Part shown: positions 955 to 55,301 of the stretch, piece by piece
Numbering within the stretch: position 1 is the stretch's first letter
Layout of the letters: each line of letters starts with the position of its first letter
Source of the DNA: a virus
Reading direction: 5' to 3' (one strand)
DNA length: 64,000 nt
Virus record (IMG/VR): IMGVR_UViG_3300023184_008808
Location: 1-64,000 of that record
Position numbers and translations under genes: made by a program
The notes under the pieces: generated by a model
The model's input: the letters and a program-made list of their open reading frames with translations, nothing else
Database searches by the model: none
Told to the model about the DNA's origin: nothing

Positions 955-1305
955 GGGGCCGAACTAGTTTCGATTCGAAGGCTAGAGGTTCATGTGGCAT
1001 GCAGAGGTTCATCGAGAGGCCTCTTTAAAACTCGATGCGTCAATTAAATGGCGAATCTGTTCTTGCTATGGCTGCTTAATTAAAGCTGCCTTTGGACTGC
1101 GGGGGCGATGTGAGTAGCGCTCAAAAGTCCATTGTTAAATCTCACTAGTCTTTTGTTGCCAACTAACAATTGATGAAAATTAAGTTGGAAAAGCCTGAAG
1201 GGGATTTGCCTGATGTTCCTTGATGGTGTTTTTAAACAACAGGACAAGCATGTAGAGGCAGAGCTAAAGGATTCGAAGACTGCGGGGCGGTACCGCACGG
1301 CTCCA
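955..1305 (+). ncRNA. ssrA: tmRNA (transfer-messenger RNA)
   Basis: The 5' end GGGGCCG (955-961) pairs with CGGCTCC (1298-1304) to form the acceptor stem, followed by discriminator A; CCA is not encoded. The conserved 5' element ATTCGA (near 972) and the conserved 3' block AAGCATGTAGAGGCAGAGCT (from 1246) are present. The tag frame ends GTT CTT GCT ATG GCT GCT TAA (stop at 1077-1079), giving ...ESVLAMAA, close to the E. coli ...YALAA. The resume codon is probably GGC at 1050 (preceded by UAAAU), so the tag would be (A)GESVLAMAA; an earlier codon is possible. The T-arm stem TGCGG/CCGCA (1281-1297) is intact, but its 7-nt loop GGCGGTA lacks the usual TTCRANT. It should rescue stalled ribosomes and tag nascent chains for proteolysis; ClpX is encoded at 54030. 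Confidence 0.93.
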
Positions 1306-4189: not shown

Positions 4190-6937
4190 ATGAGCAAGGA
4201 AAGATTTGAAAGCCTGTGTCTTCAGGCCCTGAAATCTCGTGGATTAGAACAAAATCTTCGTTACATCAAGCGATTAAAATGGGAAGTTGAGGAAATTCTT
4301 GGCAAAGAAAAGCAAGATTATTTTCTTGATCTTTATGACCGTAAAATTCGCTATCCTTATAACCAAAACAATCTTCTTGTGTGTTGGTTGCTTGGAATTG
4401 TTCCAGATTGTGATGTTGATAAAGAACCCAACAATGTTTTTACAGGCGACCTTCCTGATATTGATGTTGATTACATTCCTATCGTTCGTGATTACTTAAA
4501 AAATGTTTGGGCTCCAAAAACATTTGGCGAAGAATATGTCTGCAACATTGGCAATTACACTACCTTCGGCTTGAAAAATGCACTCATTGATATGGCTCGT
4601 GTAATTGATCAATCTCGTGATGAAGCTCAAGAAATCACTAAAAATCTTGACGCAAAAGATGATGAAGGCAAGCCTTTAAATTGGGATTCAGCAATTAAAC
4701 TATATCCTGAATTAAAAAAATACGCAGATGAACATCCTGAAGTAGTTGAAGCCGCCAAGATGATGGTTAATAGAAATCGTGGTATGGGAGTTCATGCTGG
4801 AGGTTTGATCATATCGAGTATACCTTTGCATGATCTTGTTCCACTTGTTAAGCGTAAAGACAGTCCTCAAGCAAGTTCTTGGGTCGAAGGTTTAAATGGT
4901 CAAGATTTACAACCAGTGGGTTTGGTAAAGTTTGATTTGCTTGTTATTTCAAATCTTTTACAAATTGCTCGTTGTTGTCAAATTATTAAAGAGCGTCATG
5001 GTTTGGAAGGTATTTGTAATATTGCAGGCGGTCCTGATTGGAGTGATGTATCTAAATGGCGAAATGATTCTAAAGCTTTAGAGATGGCAAATACAGGTGA
5101 TTTGAAATGTGTTTTCCAGTTTGATTCAGAGGGTATGCGTAGTTTGGTTCGTTCAGGTGGCGTTGATCGTTTTGAAGATTTGGTGGCTTATTCTGCTTTG
5201 TTTCGACCCGGATGTTTAAAGATGGGGATGGATAAGCGTTATATTGAACGCAAAAAAAATAGAGAATCATTTGAGCTTCATCCTTTGATGTACCCAATAT
5301 TAGATAAGACATATGGAGTTATGGTTTATCAAGAACAGATCATGCGGATTTTGCATGTTGTAGGCGATATCCCTTTAAAAGATTGCGAAGCTGTTCGTAA
5401 GGCAATTAGCAAGAAAAAGATTGAATCTTTTATCAAGTATAAAGAAATGTTTATTGTTAATGGACAGAAAAATTTAAGTGTTGACCAGAAAGCTGTTGAA
5501 GATTTGTGGGCTCAGGTCGAAGCTTTTTCTGAATATGGTTTTAATTTGAGTCATGCTGTCGCTTATACATATATTTCTATGCGGTTAATATGGCTTAAAG
5601 CTCATTATCCCCATGAGTTTTATGCTTCTATGCTCAGCTGCGAAACCTTGAGCGAAAAAATTAAAGACTACAAAATGGAAGCTAGGGTTCATGGTGTAGA
5701 CATGCATCGTCTAGATGTTAACAAGTCCAAAGTCAATTTTGATTTGCAAGATAAAATGATTTATTTTGGATTTAGCAATGTGCGAGGGATAGGGGAATCT
5801 CCAGCAAAGAAAATTGTAGCTAATCAGCCTTATTCTTCTTTTGAAGATTTTCTTATTCGTTGCGGAACAGATTCTTCCATGTTAAAGCCAATTATTGGTC
5901 TAAGATGTTTTCGAGATAGTGATCCAATTACACTTTGGAAATTTGCCGAACATTTTAAAGATTGTCTGAAAAAGGGAGAAGCAAAGCGAAAAAGATTTTA
6001 TGATTCTGTTTCAAGATACGAAGATGATTTTAAAGAACTTGTTCCTGATGAAACTGTGACTTTAGCCGATTTAAGTGGAGATATGCCTTTTGATGATTCT
6101 TATTGGAAGGACAAATACAACAAAGAAGAATTTATAGAAACAACGAAAGAGGTTGAATGTGAAGAGGGAGAAGGAAAGCCTCGAATCGTTGCCAAAGAAA
6201 TTGATACTGGTGATGATAATGTTGTTATTGAACAGGAAAAGACTGTTTATTTTAAGAATATTTTAGTAGTTAAGCAATGGAATCGTTGGAAAGCTCTTAG
6301 GCAATTGTGGATGCGTAGAAAGCGTACATTAGGAAGTGGGAATGATACTGCTCCAATCAATCTTCCTAAGTTGATTGATTTTAATCCTAATGAATATTCA
6401 ATTCCAAATGATTTGTTAAAACTATTTCGTGATCCCGTTGCTTGCGAACGAGAATATTATGGTTTTGCTTGGATTCATGAATTAGAACGAAGTCCAGATT
6501 ATCGAGGCAATCTTACATTTGACGCATTGAAAAATGACATTCATAATACTGTTGCCCCTGTAGAGGTTACTGTAAAGAAATGTTCCGTAGTAACAAGTAA
6601 AAAAGGAACAACTTATCGTCAGGTTCTGGCCGAAGATGTAACAGGACAGCAAAATAGAATCAATATTTGGGATGACGATTGGCAGCGTTGGCAACAAGAA
6701 TTTAAGGCTGATAACTTACTTAGATTGCGTCTACAGCCTCCCTCAGGTGGTTTCAATACTTTCACTTTAGAAAGCAATCAAAAAGGAAAGTATCGTGGAA
6801 TCAAAAGATATCCTGATAAAGCTCATGATCCTAGAGTATGGGTGATGCAGATGGGCAAAAAGGAAGAGGATAAATATCTTACCGATGAAGAGGCCCTCGA
6901 ACAATTTGATGATTGCATAATGGAAAATTCCAAATGA
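4190..6937 (+). CDS. dnaE: DNA polymerase III alpha subunit (DnaE-like), without PHP domain
   Basis: 915 aa, C-family replicative polymerase. The palm has PDIDVDY at residues 89-95 (D90, D92, matching the PDFDIDF catalytic aspartates) and VKFDLL at ~247 (third aspartate D249). Also visible are GVHAGGLIIS at ~200, LFRPG, QEQIMRI, and the fingers motif NLSHAVAYTYIS. The C-terminal region has an OB-fold-like stretch (VEVTVKKCSVVTSKKGTTY). The N-terminal PHP domain (about 270 residues in bacterial DnaE) is absent, and the GxGRGS loop before the catalytic site is replaced by RYPYNQNN. Stop overlaps the next ATG (ATGA). Likely the phage replicase or a repair polymerase. Confidence 0.92.
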   Translation: MSKERFESLCLQALKSRGLEQNLRYIKRLKWEVEEILGKEKQDYFLDLYDRKIRYPYNQNNLLVCWLLGIVPDCDVDKEPNNVFTGDLPDIDVDYIPIVRDYLKNVWAPKTFGEEYVCNIGNYTTFGLKNALIDMARVIDQSRDEAQEITKNLDAKDDEGKPLNWDSAIKLYPELKKYADEHPEVVEAAKMMVNRNRGMGVHAGGLIISSIPLHDLVPLVKRKDSPQASSWVEGLNGQDLQPVGLVKFDLLVISNLLQIARCCQIIKERHGLEGICNIAGGPDWSDVSKWRNDSKALEMANTGDLKCVFQFDSEGMRSLVRSGGVDRFEDLVAYSALFRPGCLKMGMDKRYIERKKNRESFELHPLMYPILDKTYGVMVYQEQIMRILHVVGDIPLKDCEAVRKAISKKKIESFIKYKEMFIVNGQKNLSVDQKAVEDLWAQVEAFSEYGFNLSHAVAYTYISMRLIWLKAHYPHEFYASMLSCETLSEKIKDYKMEARVHGVDMHRLDVNKSKVNFDLQDKMIYFGFSNVRGIGESPAKKIVANQPYSSFEDFLIRCGTDSSMLKPIIGLRCFRDSDPITLWKFAEHFKDCLKKGEAKRKRFYDSVSRYEDDFKELVPDETVTLADLSGDMPFDDSYWKDKYNKEEFIETTKEVECEEGEGKPRIVAKEIDTGDDNVVIEQEKTVYFKNILVVKQWNRWKALRQLWMRRKRTLGSGNDTAPINLPKLIDFNPNEYSIPNDLLKLFRDPVACEREYYGFAWIHELERSPDYRGNLTFDALKNDIHNTVAPVEVTVKKCSVVTSKKGTTYRQVLAEDVTGQQNRINIWDDDWQRWQQEFKADNLLRLRLQPPSGGFNTFTLESNQKGKYRGIKRYPDKAHDPRVWVMQMGKKEEDKYLTDEEALEQFDDCIMENSK

Positions 6938-12963: not shown

Positions 12964-13464
12964 ATGATTGATAAAAATACTGTTATTCAATTGGTTCCTG
13001 TTGACCTTTTGCCAAAAGCCATCGATGTTCCAACGGACGATCCGATGGCTATTTTCCGTCTTGCAACCAAGATGGAAAAGCTTTGTACCGAAGAAGATGG
13101 CATTGGATTGTCTGCTGTTCAAGTGGGCATTCCATGGAATTTTTTTATTTTACGCCGTGGCAGATATTATGAGTATTATCTCAATTGTGAATATACTGGT
13201 TTAGGCCCCAAGCAAAATTCTATTGAAGGGTGTCTTAGCTTAAAAAACACAGATGGTACATTGAAGCGTTTTGAATGTCAACGCTATGCTAAAATTCGTG
13301 TTAAGGGCAAGCAATTACGATTTACTAATGTTCCTGCCTTGGTCATAAGTGATTTTGATGAAGTGCAAGAAGGTTTGTATTCTGTTGTTTTTCAACATGA
13401 AATTGATCATGGCAATGACATTCTTATTTCCCAAATAGGCAAAGAAATAGAATTTATAAGGTGA
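12964..13464 (+). CDS. def: Peptide deformylase
   Basis: 166 aa. All three signatures are present: motif 1 GIGLSAVQ (residues 46-53), motif 2 EGCLSL (Cys90) and motif 3 QHEIDH (His145, Glu146, His149). It removes the formyl group from N-terminal Met of nascent chains. No strong SD (ATTTTATATG), so it may rely on coupling to the upstream gene. Slightly shorter at the C-terminus than typical type I enzymes, as is usual for phage copies. Confidence 0.93.
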   Translation: MIDKNTVIQLVPVDLLPKAIDVPTDDPMAIFRLATKMEKLCTEEDGIGLSAVQVGIPWNFFILRRGRYYEYYLNCEYTGLGPKQNSIEGCLSLKNTDGTLKRFECQRYAKIRVKGKQLRFTNVPALVISDFDEVQEGLYSVVFQHEIDHGNDILISQIGKEIEFIR

Positions 13465-17938: not shown

Positions 17939-18505
17939 ATGAATAACCCAAATTATGGTAGGCGTTTTTCAAGGGATCAGAATTTCAAAAGAGAAGATGA
18001 ACACAGGGTTAATTATAATATTCTTGTTCCACAAGTGCGAGTAATTAGAGGTGAAGAGCAGTTGGGGATTATGCCAACTGATGTGGCTCGTCGCATGGCT
18101 ATGGACGAAGGATTAGATCTTGTCGAAGTTGTTGCTACTGCAAAACCCCCTGTTTGTCGAATTATGGATTATAGTCGTTTTAAGTATGATCAAAACATAA
18201 AGAAAAAAGAAACTGCAAAAAAGCAACGAGAGGCCCAATCTCATTTAAAAGAAATTCGTCTTCGCCCATCTATTGCCGATCACGATACTGATATGAAAAT
18301 CACTCAAGCAAAAAAATTTATTGCTGAGGGCAACAAGGTTCAATTTAATCTTGAATTTCGTGGTGCTAGAGAACTAAGCCACAAAGAACAAGGATTTAGA
18401 GTAATGCAACGAGTGGTGGAGGCTTTGGCTGAATTTGCAAAATTAGATAGAGCTCCTGCTATGGAAGGCAGAAAAATAATATGTTCATTTTCTCCTAAGG
18501 CTTGA
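17939..18505 (+). CDS. infC: Translation initiation factor IF-3
   Basis: 188 aa, both domains present. IF3-N: VRVIRGEEQLGIMPTDVARR, GLDLVEVVATAKPPVCRIMD and YSRFKYDQ, close to the bacterial consensus; linker helix rich in Lys; IF3-C: EIRLRPSIADHDTDMKITQA, FIAEGNKVQFNLEFRGAREL, ending KIICSFSPKA. Slightly longer than most IF-3 (about 170-180 aa). It prevents 50S joining and proofreads initiator tRNA and start codon. Uses ATG rather than the autoregulated AUU of bacteria. SD region GTGAG; no bacterial rpmI/rplT follow, so this is not a host operon. Confidence 0.93.
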   Translation: MNNPNYGRRFSRDQNFKREDEHRVNYNILVPQVRVIRGEEQLGIMPTDVARRMAMDEGLDLVEVVATAKPPVCRIMDYSRFKYDQNIKKKETAKKQREAQSHLKEIRLRPSIADHDTDMKITQAKKFIAEGNKVQFNLEFRGARELSHKEQGFRVMQRVVEALAEFAKLDRAPAMEGRKIICSFSPKA

Positions 18506-19738: not shown

Positions 19739-20059
19739 ATGGATTATTCAATAACGCAACAAGAAATTCTTGCTTTTGCCAAACAAATTTACACGGCTGG
19801 TTTTGGTGGATATCTTGATTTGTGTGACAATTGTTGCAGTAAAATGGTCGAAGAGTTTTTGGCAAATAAGAAAACTATAACGCCTCATACTACTTTAACA
19901 GTGCCTCAAAATAGTCTGCAGTCAGTTAGTATACCGAATATGTCGAATGCTTGGCAAAATATTCAGGTTTACAGTGCAGACTCAACATATGCGGCAAATA
20001 GCGTTTTGGTGACCGGTGGTCATCCGCAACAAGAGCAACAAGAGCAACAAGAAAGGTAG
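19739..20059 (+). CDS. Hypothetical protein with Gln/Glu-rich tail
   Basis: 106 aa. N-terminal helical domain with closely spaced Cys (LCDNCCSKM), central Ser/Thr-rich region, and a QQEQQEQQER tail coded by a short trinucleotide-like repeat (20030-20056). No function recognised. Confidence 0.65.
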   Translation: MDYSITQQEILAFAKQIYTAGFGGYLDLCDNCCSKMVEEFLANKKTITPHTTLTVPQNSLQSVSIPNMSNAWQNIQVYSADSTYAANSVLVTGGHPQQEQQEQQER

Positions 20060-20063
20060 ATCA

Positions 20064-20441
20064 ATGGCTAAGAGCAAAATTTTGACAACAACTTCTGATG
20101 TTTTTTCCCCTGAAATTCCAATTCTGGGACAGGGCAGTAAAACTCCAAAAATCAAGAATGTAAAGCCGTGTGGTTCGCAAGTTTTGGTTGAAATTCTTAC
20201 TCCTCAAGAAATGATGGGTACGGATTTGACCGTCACTAATAAAATTGATCTTAAAGTGCCTTTGCAAGGTTATGTTAGGGCAGTTGGTCCTTCTTTTAAG
20301 TCTGAAGATTATGGCTATAAAATTGGTGACAGGGTTCTTATCTCTGGAACTGGTGTCATGGCTCCTTTGTACGATGATTGTCATCGAGATCGATTTTTTA
20401 TGGAGCCCCATGCAATCAAGAGCGTTTTGGTTGAAGAATGA
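20064..20441 (+). CDS. groES: GroES/gp31-like co-chaperonin
   Basis: 125 aa. The GroES fold is recognisable: VKPCGSQVLVEILTPQE (start strand with R/K-P-x-G/x-x-VLV), a mobile-loop region around residues 50-65 (GTDLTVTN), LQGYVRAVGP, YGYKIGDRVLISG, and final IKSVLVEE. A ~35-residue N-terminal extension precedes it. T4 gp31 replaces host GroES for capsid protein folding; a similar role is likely. SD AAAGGTAG. Stop overlaps dnaJ start (ATGA). Confidence 0.82.
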   Translation: MAKSKILTTTSDVFSPEIPILGQGSKTPKIKNVKPCGSQVLVEILTPQEMMGTDLTVTNKIDLKVPLQGYVRAVGPSFKSEDYGYKIGDRVLISGTGVMAPLYDDCHRDRFFMEPHAIKSVLVEE

Positions 20442-21508
20442 ATAAATGCTATGAAGTCTTAGGAGTTCCTAAGACTGCCAGTCAAGAAGATATTCAAAAA
20501 GCCTATCGTCAAAAGGCTAAAGAGCATCACCCAGATAGAAATCCGGGTGATGCTGACGCACAGCGTCGATTTCGTGAAATACAAGAAGCTTACGACACTC
20601 TTAGCGACCCGATCAAAAGAAATCAATATGATCGTGTTGGCAATTCCATGCATTTTCGCAGTCATGGATCAGGATTTGATCCTACCATGAATCCATTTGC
20701 GGACATGATGAGTGAGATGTTTAAAAATCCAACTTTTCAAGGTCGCAATCTTCAAATGCGACTTGATGTTTCTTTTGAAGAAGCTTTTACAGGTTGTGTA
20801 AAAGAAGTAAACATAAAAGTTAAAAATCGTTGTGTAACTTGTAACGGTCATGGCCAAACGAGCACAGAATCTTGTTCTTTGTGTAGTGGGCAAGGATTTG
20901 TCAATGTAAATAATGCTCCTTTTGAGATTAGAACTGGTTGTCCAAACTGCAATTCCACAGGAAAAATAAATTTAAAACCTTGCTCTGACTGCAATAGCAC
21001 GGGCAATCTTCCCGGTTATCGTGAAAAGAAAATAAATATTCAAATTCCTTCTGGAATTGATAACGGTGCAGTTATTCGAATCAAAGCAGAAGGAGAAGAA
21101 TCTGTCCGAGGTGGTGGAAGACCGGGAGATTTACTTGTTCATATTGTAGTGCCTGAACATCCAATCTATCGTCGTCAAGGTGCTGATTTAATTGTTGATA
21201 TACCTGTATCATATGCAGAATTGGCATTAGGTTCAGAAATATCTTTACCTTATTTTCAAGGTGAAAAATTATCACTCAAAGTTCCTGCAGGTACTCAAAG
21301 CCATAGTAAACTAAAATTGACAGGAAAAGGTGGAGTGTTACCTAATGGTCTTATTGGCGATTTGATTGTTACTTTGAAGGTTGAAACCGTAAAAAATCCT
21401 GATGAAAATTATTTAAAAATACTTGAACAATTAGCCACTTTAGAAAAAAATCATGTTGATTCAAGAAGAGCAGCATGGCAGAAAAAAATAGATTCAACAA
21501 CTACATAA
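20438..21508 (+). CDS. dnaJ: DnaJ (Hsp40) co-chaperone, type I
   Basis: 356 aa. J domain (1-70) with HPDRNPGD, short Gly/Phe region, zinc domain with four CxxC motifs (CVTCNGHG, CSLCSGQG, CPNCNSTG, CSDCNSTG), then two C-terminal beta domains (IQIPSGIDNGAVIRIKAEGE, GKGGVLPNGLIGDLIV). Stimulates DnaK ATPase; no DnaK in this window, so it likely recruits host DnaK. Forms an operon with the GroES-like gene. Confidence 0.95.
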   Translation: MNKCYEVLGVPKTASQEDIQKAYRQKAKEHHPDRNPGDADAQRRFREIQEAYDTLSDPIKRNQYDRVGNSMHFRSHGSGFDPTMNPFADMMSEMFKNPTFQGRNLQMRLDVSFEEAFTGCVKEVNIKVKNRCVTCNGHGQTSTESCSLCSGQGFVNVNNAPFEIRTGCPNCNSTGKINLKPCSDCNSTGNLPGYREKKINIQIPSGIDNGAVIRIKAEGEESVRGGGRPGDLLVHIVVPEHPIYRRQGADLIVDIPVSYAELALGSEISLPYFQGEKLSLKVPAGTQSHSKLKLTGKGGVLPNGLIGDLIVTLKVETVKNPDENYLKILEQLATLEKNHVDSRRAAWQKKIDSTTT

Positions 21509-39976: not shown

Positions 39977-40288
39977 ATGAATACTGCAACAATTGAAGAA
40001 ACTGAAACAATAGTAAAAAAACAACCACCTTACAATCTTATTCTTTTAAATGATGATGATCATACGGAAAGTTATGTAATTAGTATGTGCATGAAGCTTT
40101 TTGGATATTCCAAAACAAAAGGTAAAAATATTGCCCTAGAGGTTCATAATACTGGTCGTTCAATCATATACACTGGATCATTTGAAGTTGTGGAATTAAA
40201 ACAAGAGCAAGTTCATTCTTTTGGTCGAGATATATTTGTCATGCGTTGTAAGGGAAGCATGACAGCAGTTATTGAAAAAGTTGTTTAA
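39977..40288 (+). CDS. clpS: ClpS-like adaptor
   Basis: 103 aa. PPYNLILLNDDDHTESYVISMCMKLF, split by the family as (P)(Y)(N/K)V(I/L)LxNDDxxT and a first helix, matches ClpS; later GRSIIYTGSFEVVELKQEQV. ClpS delivers N-degron substrates to ClpAP, or inhibits other adaptors. With phage ClpX in the same window it may steer the host Clp protease. GGAG lies ~10 nt upstream. Confidence 0.82.
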   Translation: MNTATIEETETIVKKQPPYNLILLNDDDHTESYVISMCMKLFGYSKTKGKNIALEVHNTGRSIIYTGSFEVVELKQEQVHSFGRDIFVMRCKGSMTAVIEKVV

Positions 40289-43160: not shown

Positions 43161-43913
43161 TTGAACAGACCTTTGCTTATATTGAGCATGCCAAATTGTG
43201 GTTCAGACTGGCTTGTATCTACTATTCAGAAAAGCAATCTAGATTTAATTTATAATAGAGAATTTTTCAATCCAGCCGTTAATATTCAACACAGAGATGT
43301 TATTAAGCAAGCATTTGGTAGTGAGTATGTTGGCAATTATAAAAATATAGCACATTTTGATTATGAATCTTGTGACAAGGTTTTTAAACAAACTTGGGAA
43401 AAGACAAATTTTAATTTTACAAAAGAAAATTATTCAGCGTTTAAGATTCCTTATTTTTTTGATAAATTCTTTTGTTTTGCTTTTATTCGAGATGTTAGAC
43501 AATCTCTTCCGGGATCTCGTACCATACAAGTTTCTTCTTGGTATGATGCAATTTATCAATCTATGTTGTGTAATTTAGATAGTTTGTCCGATTGGATTAA
43601 AGATGCCATAAAAAAATTCACAAGTGAAAATCGTTCAACTTATGAAGAAAATGTGTTTGCTTTTTTGTTGTATCAAAAAATATTAGTTGAAATGTGCAAA
43701 GTTCATGGAATCACCGTTATAGAGTACAAAAATCTCATGCAATTTGATCGTGATAAATTAACTGACTATTTAAAGATTTTTGAAAATTATCTCAATGTTA
43801 AATCATGGGTTAATCATATAGTTAGCAGTCGAAAAAATCATAGACGGAATTTTAATTCAACTAATGGTGAATGGATTTTACAAAAATTTTCTGATTTAAA
43901 GTGTGGAACATGA
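43161..43913 (+). CDS. Sulfotransferase-like protein
   Basis: 250 aa. SMPNCGSDWLVSTI near the N-terminus fits the 5'-phosphosulfate loop (xxxRSGSxWL); FAFIRDVRQSLPGS fits the 3'-phosphate loop (xxRdPr..xxS). The basic residue of the first loop is replaced (N/C), so activity is uncertain. If active it would use PAPS to sulfate a glycan. TTG start with GGAG upstream. Confidence 0.65.
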   Translation: MNRPLLILSMPNCGSDWLVSTIQKSNLDLIYNREFFNPAVNIQHRDVIKQAFGSEYVGNYKNIAHFDYESCDKVFKQTWEKTNFNFTKENYSAFKIPYFFDKFFCFAFIRDVRQSLPGSRTIQVSSWYDAIYQSMLCNLDSLSDWIKDAIKKFTSENRSTYEENVFAFLLYQKILVEMCKVHGITVIEYKNLMQFDRDKLTDYLKIFENYLNVKSWVNHIVSSRKNHRRNFNSTNGEWILQKFSDLKCGT

Positions 43914-44314
43914 GCGTAAAGCAAGTTATTGTGTGGCGACATGATTTAAATTGTCGAATGGGTAAAAAAATGGCACAGGCTGGACATGCAGCTTTGGCTG
44001 ATTTTTTTTCTAGCTTTCAAAATCATGTTGATGCTTATGGAAATGTTTCATTTCAAATGACCGCAGAGCAATTTGAATGGTATCTTAATAATCGAAAAAA
44101 GATAGTTCTTAGGGTTGATAGTGAATCAGATTTATTGCTTCTAAAGCAACGAGGCGAAGAAATGGGGCTTCCTGTTTATTTGATCACAGACGATGGTTTG
44201 ACCGAATGGGAAAATCCTACCAATACTTGTTTAGCTATTGGGCCTGCCAATGAAGCTGCAATAGATTTATTGACTGGAGAAAACGGACCCTTAGGAAAAT
44301 TAAAACTATTATAG
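43910..44314 (+). CDS. pth2: Peptidyl-tRNA hydrolase, Pth2 type
   Basis: 134 aa. VKQVIVWRHDLNCRMGKKMA and QAGHAALADFF match the Pth2 catalytic region (R..L.M..GK.aaQ..HA); KIVLRVDSESDLLLLKQRGEE, LPVYLITDDGLTEW and TCLAIGPANEAAIDLLTG complete the fold. Frees tRNA from dropped peptidyl-tRNA. Pth2 is typical of archaea and eukaryotes and uncommon in bacteria. ATG overlaps the preceding stop. Confidence 0.9.
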   Translation: MSVKQVIVWRHDLNCRMGKKMAQAGHAALADFFSSFQNHVDAYGNVSFQMTAEQFEWYLNNRKKIVLRVDSESDLLLLKQRGEEMGLPVYLITDDGLTEWENPTNTCLAIGPANEAAIDLLTGENGPLGKLKLL

Positions 44315-54029: not shown

Positions 54030-55301
54030 ATGAGTAAAAAGAAAAGCCCAGTCTGTGATTACTGTGGCAAACCCAGTTCTCAGGTTGGCCTATTAGTAGA
54101 AAGTCCTGTCTCTGATAAAGAACAAAATGGACGACCTGCTGGTGGTAAGGTTTATATTTGTGGCAGTTGTGTTGATATATGCCAAACTATGGTTGTTCAA
54201 AAGATGAAATCTCCTTCTTTAACATTTATTTCTAATCATATTCCTTCTCCCAAGCAAATTGTTGCTTATCTTGATAAGTCTATCATTGGACAAGATAGTG
54301 CTAAAAAAGCTTTGGCTGTAGCCATTACAAATCATTACAAAAGACTTCAAGATAATAATTTAGATCGGGATGATGATCTTTTTGCTGATGTTACTCTTGA
54401 AAAAAGCAATATTCTTCTCATCGGTCCAACTGGTTGTGGCAAAACATCTCTTGCTCGCACATTAGCACACATATTAAAAGTTCCATTTGCAATTGGTGAT
54501 GCAACCACATTGACAGAGGCGGGTTATGTTGGCGAAGATGTAGAAAATCTTGTTTTAAAATTATTACGAGAGGCAGATTTTAAAGTTGAATTGGCTCAAA
54601 CTGGAATTATTTTTTTAGATGAGTTAGACAAAATTGGTAAAACTTCACAAAATGTTTCGATTACTAGAGATGTAAGCGGTGAAGGAGTTCAACAAGCTTT
54701 GTTGAAAATGCTTGAAGGCACAACTTGTAATGTTCCACCGGGAGGGGGCAGGAAACATCCCGAACAACAATACATTCAAATTGATACAACAAACATTTTA
54801 TTTATTTGTGGCGGTGCTTTTGTTGGTCTCGATGAGATTATTCGTCGTCGTATTGGCAAAGCCACCATGGGTTTTAATCCCTCTGCAAAAAAAGATGAAA
54901 ACGAATGGATTTTGGAATATGTAACCGAGGACGATCTTATTGAGTATGGTCTTATTCCTGAAATTATTGGTCGTCTTCCTGTTATTACTCCTTTGAAGGG
55001 TCTTGATGAAGAAGCGATGATTAAGATATTGACTGAACCAAAAGATGCTTTAGTCAAACAATATCAGAAAATGTGTCATAAAGATAATGTTAAACTAATG
55101 TTTACAAACGAGGCATTGTCTTTGATTGCTAAAAAGGCTATAGATAAAGGCACTGGAGCTCGTGGTCTCAGAAGCGTCATGGAAAGTTTCATGATAGAAA
55201 TTATGTACCATTTATCAGATCATGATGGAGAAAGCGTTGTAGTAACAAAAGAAGTCGTTGAAGGTGGAACAGCTATTTTTACAAAAAATAGAGCAGCTTA
55301 A
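54030..55301 (+). CDS. clpX: ClpX unfoldase
   Basis: 423 aa, full length. N-terminal zinc-binding domain (C9, C12, C44, C47), AAA+ Walker A GPTGCGKT (132-139), pore loop GYVG (165-168), Walker B FLDELD (195-200), [28 protein letters not shown], and C-terminal [14 protein letters not shown]. Recognises C-terminal degrons such as the tmRNA tag and feeds ClpP; no ClpP in the window, so the host protease is likely recruited (the IGF loop equivalent reads MGF). SD GAGG. Confidence 0.95.

Follow-up and report, generated by a model that had tools for sequence, protein, structure and literature searches.

The locus at positions 955-1305 of the window, by which we mean the whole 64,000-nt stretch of viral DNA analysed here, raises the question of whether a phage carries a functional tmRNA at this site, and in what form. 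The original prediction proposed a full-length viral tmRNA with paired ends and named the Rfam covariance model as its check. Rfam model RF00023 matches positions 955-1308 on the plus strand over its entire length (model positions 1-374), scoring 79.0 bits (E 5.6e-29) where the gathering cut-off is 47, which bears out the proposal. No second RF00023 match occurs in the whole 90,159-bp virus record that contains the window. The two-piece models RF01849 and RF04321 were not reported for the window in the Rfam scan, and the parts of the gene follow the standard order without circular permutation, so that the two-piece form does not apply. The one-piece gene comprises 351 nt and encodes no CCA; its 3' end at the discriminator A1305 is correct for a gene of this kind. 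Some 65 nt separate its end from the likely start, at 1372, of a glycosyltransferase/methyltransferase gene that runs rightward.

Structurally, the ends of the RNA are joined by a 7-bp acceptor stem, consisting of a 5' strand GGGGCCG with G3 (955-961, plus strand) and a 3' strand CGGCTCC (1298-1304, plus strand), in which 7 of 7 pairs form, as the sequence and the family alignment agree. The alanine identity pair G3.U70 is unchanged in 10/10 family members and, together with the acceptor length and discriminator A (A73), completes the set of features for alanine charging. Pseudoknot 1 (1003-1037, plus strand) is built from the helices 1003-1007/1020-1024 and 1010-1016/1031-1037, and ten of its 12 pairs show changes on both sides among the ten family members. 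Across the acceptor, the T-stem and both pseudoknot 1 helices, 99.6% of cells in this ten-member alignment are paired, both-side changes are found in 16 of 24 pairs, and the covariation score was reached by 0 of 500 shuffles. These paired changes, combined with the absence of any shuffle that attains the score, argue that the RNA is under selection as a tmRNA. The later pseudoknots draw their support from the Rfam alignment, and pseudoknot 1 from covariation. The string GACTGCGGGG is not confined to one site, as it occurs in a pseudoknot too.

The tag frame lies at 1050-1079 on the plus strand and reads GGC GAA TCT GTT CTT GCT ATG GCT GCT TAA, encoding GESVLAMAA followed by a stop. A frame ending in ESVLAMAA had been predicted here, with GGC (1050-1052) as resume codon, and the ten aligned family sequences agree on both counts. 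The first tag base falls in one shared alignment column and is always G, an A stands at position -4, and nine codons precede the stop, each in 10/10 sequences. This shared context supports GGC 1050 well as the resume codon, and better than any alternative. The family tags are GESVLAMAA (window), GETVYAMAA, GETVYALAA, DETVYALAA, DETVHALAA, DETVLSLAA, DKTNFAMAA, AEPVFSMAA, and ANPEFAMAA; the C-terminal Ala-Ala is invariant, and the third-last residue is M or L. The tag frames of two further tmRNAs (L063 and L071) end in UGA, not UAA.

Few features of tRNA-like molecules are as conserved as the contact between D-loop and T-loop. In the window gene, both loops are altered, which is the most unusual feature of the gene and one that the original prediction did not mention. 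The D-loop carries A18 G19 (966-967, plus strand) in place of the usual tmRNA G18 G19. The T-arm (1281-1297, plus strand) has a regular stem TGCGG/CCGCA, which is fully paired (100%) and in relatives has compensatory changes at 3 of its 5 pairs, and closes on the loop GGCGGTA (1286-1292), not UUCRANN. The canonical combination of T-loop UUCRA and D-loop GG is thus absent; it is usual for tmRNAs, not defining, as accepted alphaproteobacterial tmRNAs lack it as well. The T-loop class GGCRG is also found in five further sequences (L003, L063, L065, L071, and L073). We infer that the elbow adopts an alternative state, in which A18/G55 would replace the G18-psi55 pair and G54/G58 the U54-A58 pair, while G19-C56 would be kept. 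Because the elbow bases change together, the sequences mark this as a compensated structural state rather than decay. Decay of the T-loop was examined as an explanation and ruled out, the loop being shared by relatives and compensated. A related reading holds that the RNA is non-functional or a decoy freed from T-loop constraints, comparable to the form of phage DS6A that consists of the tRNA-like domain only. A phage form of this type that inhibits tmRNA has been reported (PMC11915505), and the loss of U54, U55, and A58 together with the missing CCA would resemble decay. We consider this very improbable, given that tag frame, pseudoknot 1, acceptor, and T-stem are conserved with compensatory changes, and that the loop class is common to several divergent relatives and to chromosomal tmRNAs.

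When comparing the gene with the standard one-piece tmRNA (RF00023), we observed the same order of parts, G3.U70 acceptor, pseudoknots, resume context, and Ala-Ala tag end; the difference resides in the T-loop GGCRG and the D-loop AG, and in the gene being invisible to ARAGORN. The alphaproteobacterial two-piece tmRNA (RF01849), in contrast, has the same loops, T-loop GGCGGUA and D-loop AG (model loops GGCgGUA and uAGGAUCGAC), whereas the window gene is one-piece and unpermuted. The tmRNAs of Saccharibacteria and other Patescibacteria are likewise one-piece with A18/G55, many also with G54/G58, but they are chromosomal, mostly encode CCA, and have other bodies. Known phage tmRNAs (Bxz1, Wildcat, phage G, and the two-piece Melnitz) are likewise viral tmRNAs with a tag (PMC4131195, PMC9004378); Melnitz differs by its permuted gene of the alphaproteobacterial type. 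The huge-phage record LR756511.1 shares a related polymerase, the neighbourhood, and a tmRNA with a 9-codon tag (ANPEFAMAA), but has the ordinary elbow, UUC with GG. T-loop variants were noted in 2005, namely a Reclinomonas mitochondrial tmRNA with GG and a Caulobacter one with a single G (PMC1168896). The alternative elbow state is therefore already known from alphaproteobacterial two-piece tmRNAs. Two aspects appear to be new, namely that phages and Saccharibacteria have this state in one-piece tmRNAs and that its two base pairs are strictly coupled; in the openly readable literature, neither the coupled change nor a one-piece form was found described. That the elbow might be unique to the window phage was ruled out by the RF01849 loops and by a survey of one Saccharibacteria class. 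Two viral contigs (L066:5902-6142 and L069:826-1046) carry two-piece, permuted tmRNAs of the alphaproteobacterial type.

The coupling of the elbow positions was tabulated in surveys. Among more than 200 tmRNAs, U55 is accompanied by G18, a base that is never seen alongside G55. In the tRNA-like domains of phages and Saccharibacteria, which are related and whose counts are not independent events, G55 is accompanied by A, C, or U18 in 115 of 115 cases and U55 by G18 in 67 of 68, the one outlier (L273) reflecting a wrongly set 5' end. Independent support comes from the recurrence of the change in distinct lineages. The 54/58 bases in the phage and Saccharibacteria table are U/A in 104 cases, G/G in 77, and other in 2, in a collection whose phage TTC set was selected by a pattern that includes A58, and one of whose GGC scans required G58. 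Given these pattern-chosen sets, the 54-58 coupling rests on two other sources. The first is a search for GGCR-bearing tmRNA 3' ends in viral contigs and bacterial genomes, with base 58 left free: G58 was present in every hit with a 5/5 T-stem, the false hits had mixed bases at 58, and the true hits came from roughly a dozen contigs of phages and some fourteen chromosomes of Saccharibacteria. The second is the Saccharibacteria class, surveyed by the Rfam model and unselected for the loop, in which T-loops were GGC.G in 50 cases and TGC.A in 37, with D-loop A-G in nearly all and G18 never; the only two TTC loops both came with D-loop GG. TGC.A is a natural intermediate, having A18/G55 already and U54/A58 still. 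In a sample of the whole phylum Patescibacteria, G18/U55 and A18/G55 occur side by side and are never crossed. A few rows that were unreadable or not tmRNA ends were left out of the Saccharibacteria and Patescibacteria counts. One Saccharibacteria genome (G056) contains a second tmRNA (L393) with ordinary TTC/GG and without CCA, possibly phage-derived or a contamination. A phage one-piece tmRNA with a GGC T-loop (L064:6598-7118) spans 520 nt, far above the usual length, which makes an insertion likely.

The polymerase gene at 4190-6937 recovers relatives among viral contigs at 47-69% identity, and DNA comparison with named phages gave no match, near or distant. In these relatives, the tmRNA lies upstream of glycosyltransferase and DnaE-type polymerase genes, and most share the same downstream block (glycosyltransferase, AAA protein, polymerase, deformylase, and others). 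Six polymerase relatives have an Rfam tmRNA (L002, L003, L004, L009, L010, and L011), and L065, L071, L073, L074, and the 595-kb record LR756511.1 provide more of the same neighbourhood. We did not find a tmRNA in the relatives G004 (165 kb) and G007 (189 kb), and an exact 15-mer scan of viral contigs with the tmRNA's conserved block retrieved stretches of which those submitted to Rfam showed no tmRNA. Monophyly of the sequences with the GGC loop is rejected both by the polymerase tree (AU p 0.0006) and by a tree of tmRNA bodies stripped of their loops (AU p 0.011), although the glycosyltransferase tree taken by itself is compatible with one GGC clade (p 0.27). The trees call for at least two to three changes of the elbow within this family of phages, in tmRNAs that otherwise stayed orthologous. 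A distance of about 320 nt, filled by an orthologous body, separates the D-loop from the T-loop, which excludes a single short conversion tract as the cause. In L002, the tmRNA T-loop is interrupted by a group I intron (about 207 nt; L002:1042-1248; Rfam Intron_gpI, 60.8 bits), and the tmRNA of its close relative L004 is free of it.

What drives the switch is addressed by three proposals of differing likelihood. The elbow may be matched to the host, in that a phage without its own SmpB copies the elbow type that the SmpB of its host recognises, and differing elbows reflect differing hosts. We regard this as possible, though doubtful. It accords with the failure to find SmpB in the phage or its relatives, with the fixation of the same elbow in Alphaproteobacteria (RF01849) and in the sampled Saccharibacteria class, and with a known marine phage that carries an alphaproteobacterial two-piece tmRNA (PMC9004378). 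Against it, the elbow type flips inside one phage family, and a gene for a DUF1559 (SBP_bac_10) protein with a pilin-type N-terminus is present in the GGC window phage (about 64300-65400 of record G000; L061:398-1501, minus strand), the TTC relative G003, and the tmRNA-less G007. Pilin-like genes of this type we take to be typical of planctomycetes, a hint at a planctomycete-like host. The shared gene suggests one host type for both elbows, and its occurrence in GGC and TTC phages speaks against an elbow type set by host phylum. A less probable proposal is that GGCRG removes the UUC site used by group I introns and integrases in tmRNA genes. The intron of L002 occupies the T-loop at the same genomic slot, and known tmRNA introns are all in the T-loop, nearly always after a U (PMC11915505); destroying an insertion site would nonetheless not require the coordinated D-loop change, and entire chromosomal groups are fixed for this switch. 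With equally low expectation, we envisage that the elbow has two interchangeable compensated states and that selection, for example by host SmpB or for intron escape, makes phages switch from one to the other again and again. If true, such switching would place ribosome rescue under phage control, in forms to which host factors or mobile elements respond differently.

Taken together, we consider it likely from these comparisons that the locus encodes a functional phage-borne one-piece tmRNA with its tRNA-like elbow in the alternative, compensated state. The transcript would be processed by host RNase P and completed by CCA addition, probably by the host, after which host AlaRS would charge it through G3.U70 and A73. 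Charged tmRNA would then bind host SmpB and EF-Tu, enter ribosomes stalled during infection, and let translation resume at GGC 1050, so that the stalled chain would gain Ala-GESVLAMAA. The C-terminal Ala-Ala would direct the chain to ClpXP, composed of host ClpP and host or phage ClpX. The 90,159-bp record, an incomplete fragment, yielded neither SmpB nor ClpP, and both would thus have to come from the host.

A phage ClpX, a possible tag reader, is encoded at 54030-55301 on the plus strand (PDB ClpX match, E 6e-128; Pfam AAA_2 and ClpB_D2-small). It retains equivalents of all six E. coli tag-reading residues, Y153, V154, T199, V202, R228, and H230 (residue list from PMC7652416), with GYV, TRDV, and RKH conserved and MGF where IGF is usual. 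The terminal Ala-Ala matters most to ClpXP (PMC7652416). As the tag-reading residues are kept, the phage ClpX could read the tag with host ClpP. The original prediction went further and suggested destruction of tagged peptides by a phage-modified protease; the ClpX gene is present, and we see no sign of a modified specificity or of a link to the tmRNA. ClpX was detected without tmRNA in G004 and G007, tmRNA with ClpP and without ClpX, the reverse of the window, in G008 and G009, and tmRNA without ClpX in G032, all in records that may be incomplete. This loose co-occurrence among relatives does not support a dedicated tmRNA-ClpX module. The phage further encodes a ClpS-like adaptor (39977-40288, plus strand; PF02617, E 9.4e-19). 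ClpS diverts ClpA from ssrA-tagged substrates, and the ClpS and ClpX pair could favour ClpXP for tagged chains. The same record encodes IF-3 (17939-18505), peptide deformylase (12964-13464), PTH2 (43901-44314), and DnaJ (20438-21508), which makes translation upkeep during infection the simplest purpose of the tmRNA. A Cpn10-like protein (20016-20441) scores just below the Pfam cut-off. Alongside the tmRNA, ClpX, and ClpS, these genes amount to a phage kit for translation and folding.

The altered elbow also bears on detection. On the window, ARAGORN reported a tRNA-Thr only and missed the tmRNA gene, which we attribute to the T-loop GGCGGTA and the D-loop AG. Every GGC-type one-piece tmRNA tested escaped it, whereas it detected all of the TTC-type ones listed alongside. 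The main batches of a 2025 tmRNA database were obtained by ARAGORN and BLASTN (PMC11915505). ARAGORN-based databases under-count such genes, and counts of genomes and phages lacking tmRNA that rely on ARAGORN only are too high, as the one-piece type is missed in phages and Saccharibacteria. The coupled elbow switch is the part of the finding that merits experiments. Within one phage family, orthologous tmRNAs differ in the elbow while the body is recognisably the same, and these differences allow the elbow contacts on which SmpB, EF-Tu, AlaRS, and the ribosome depend to be tested directly.
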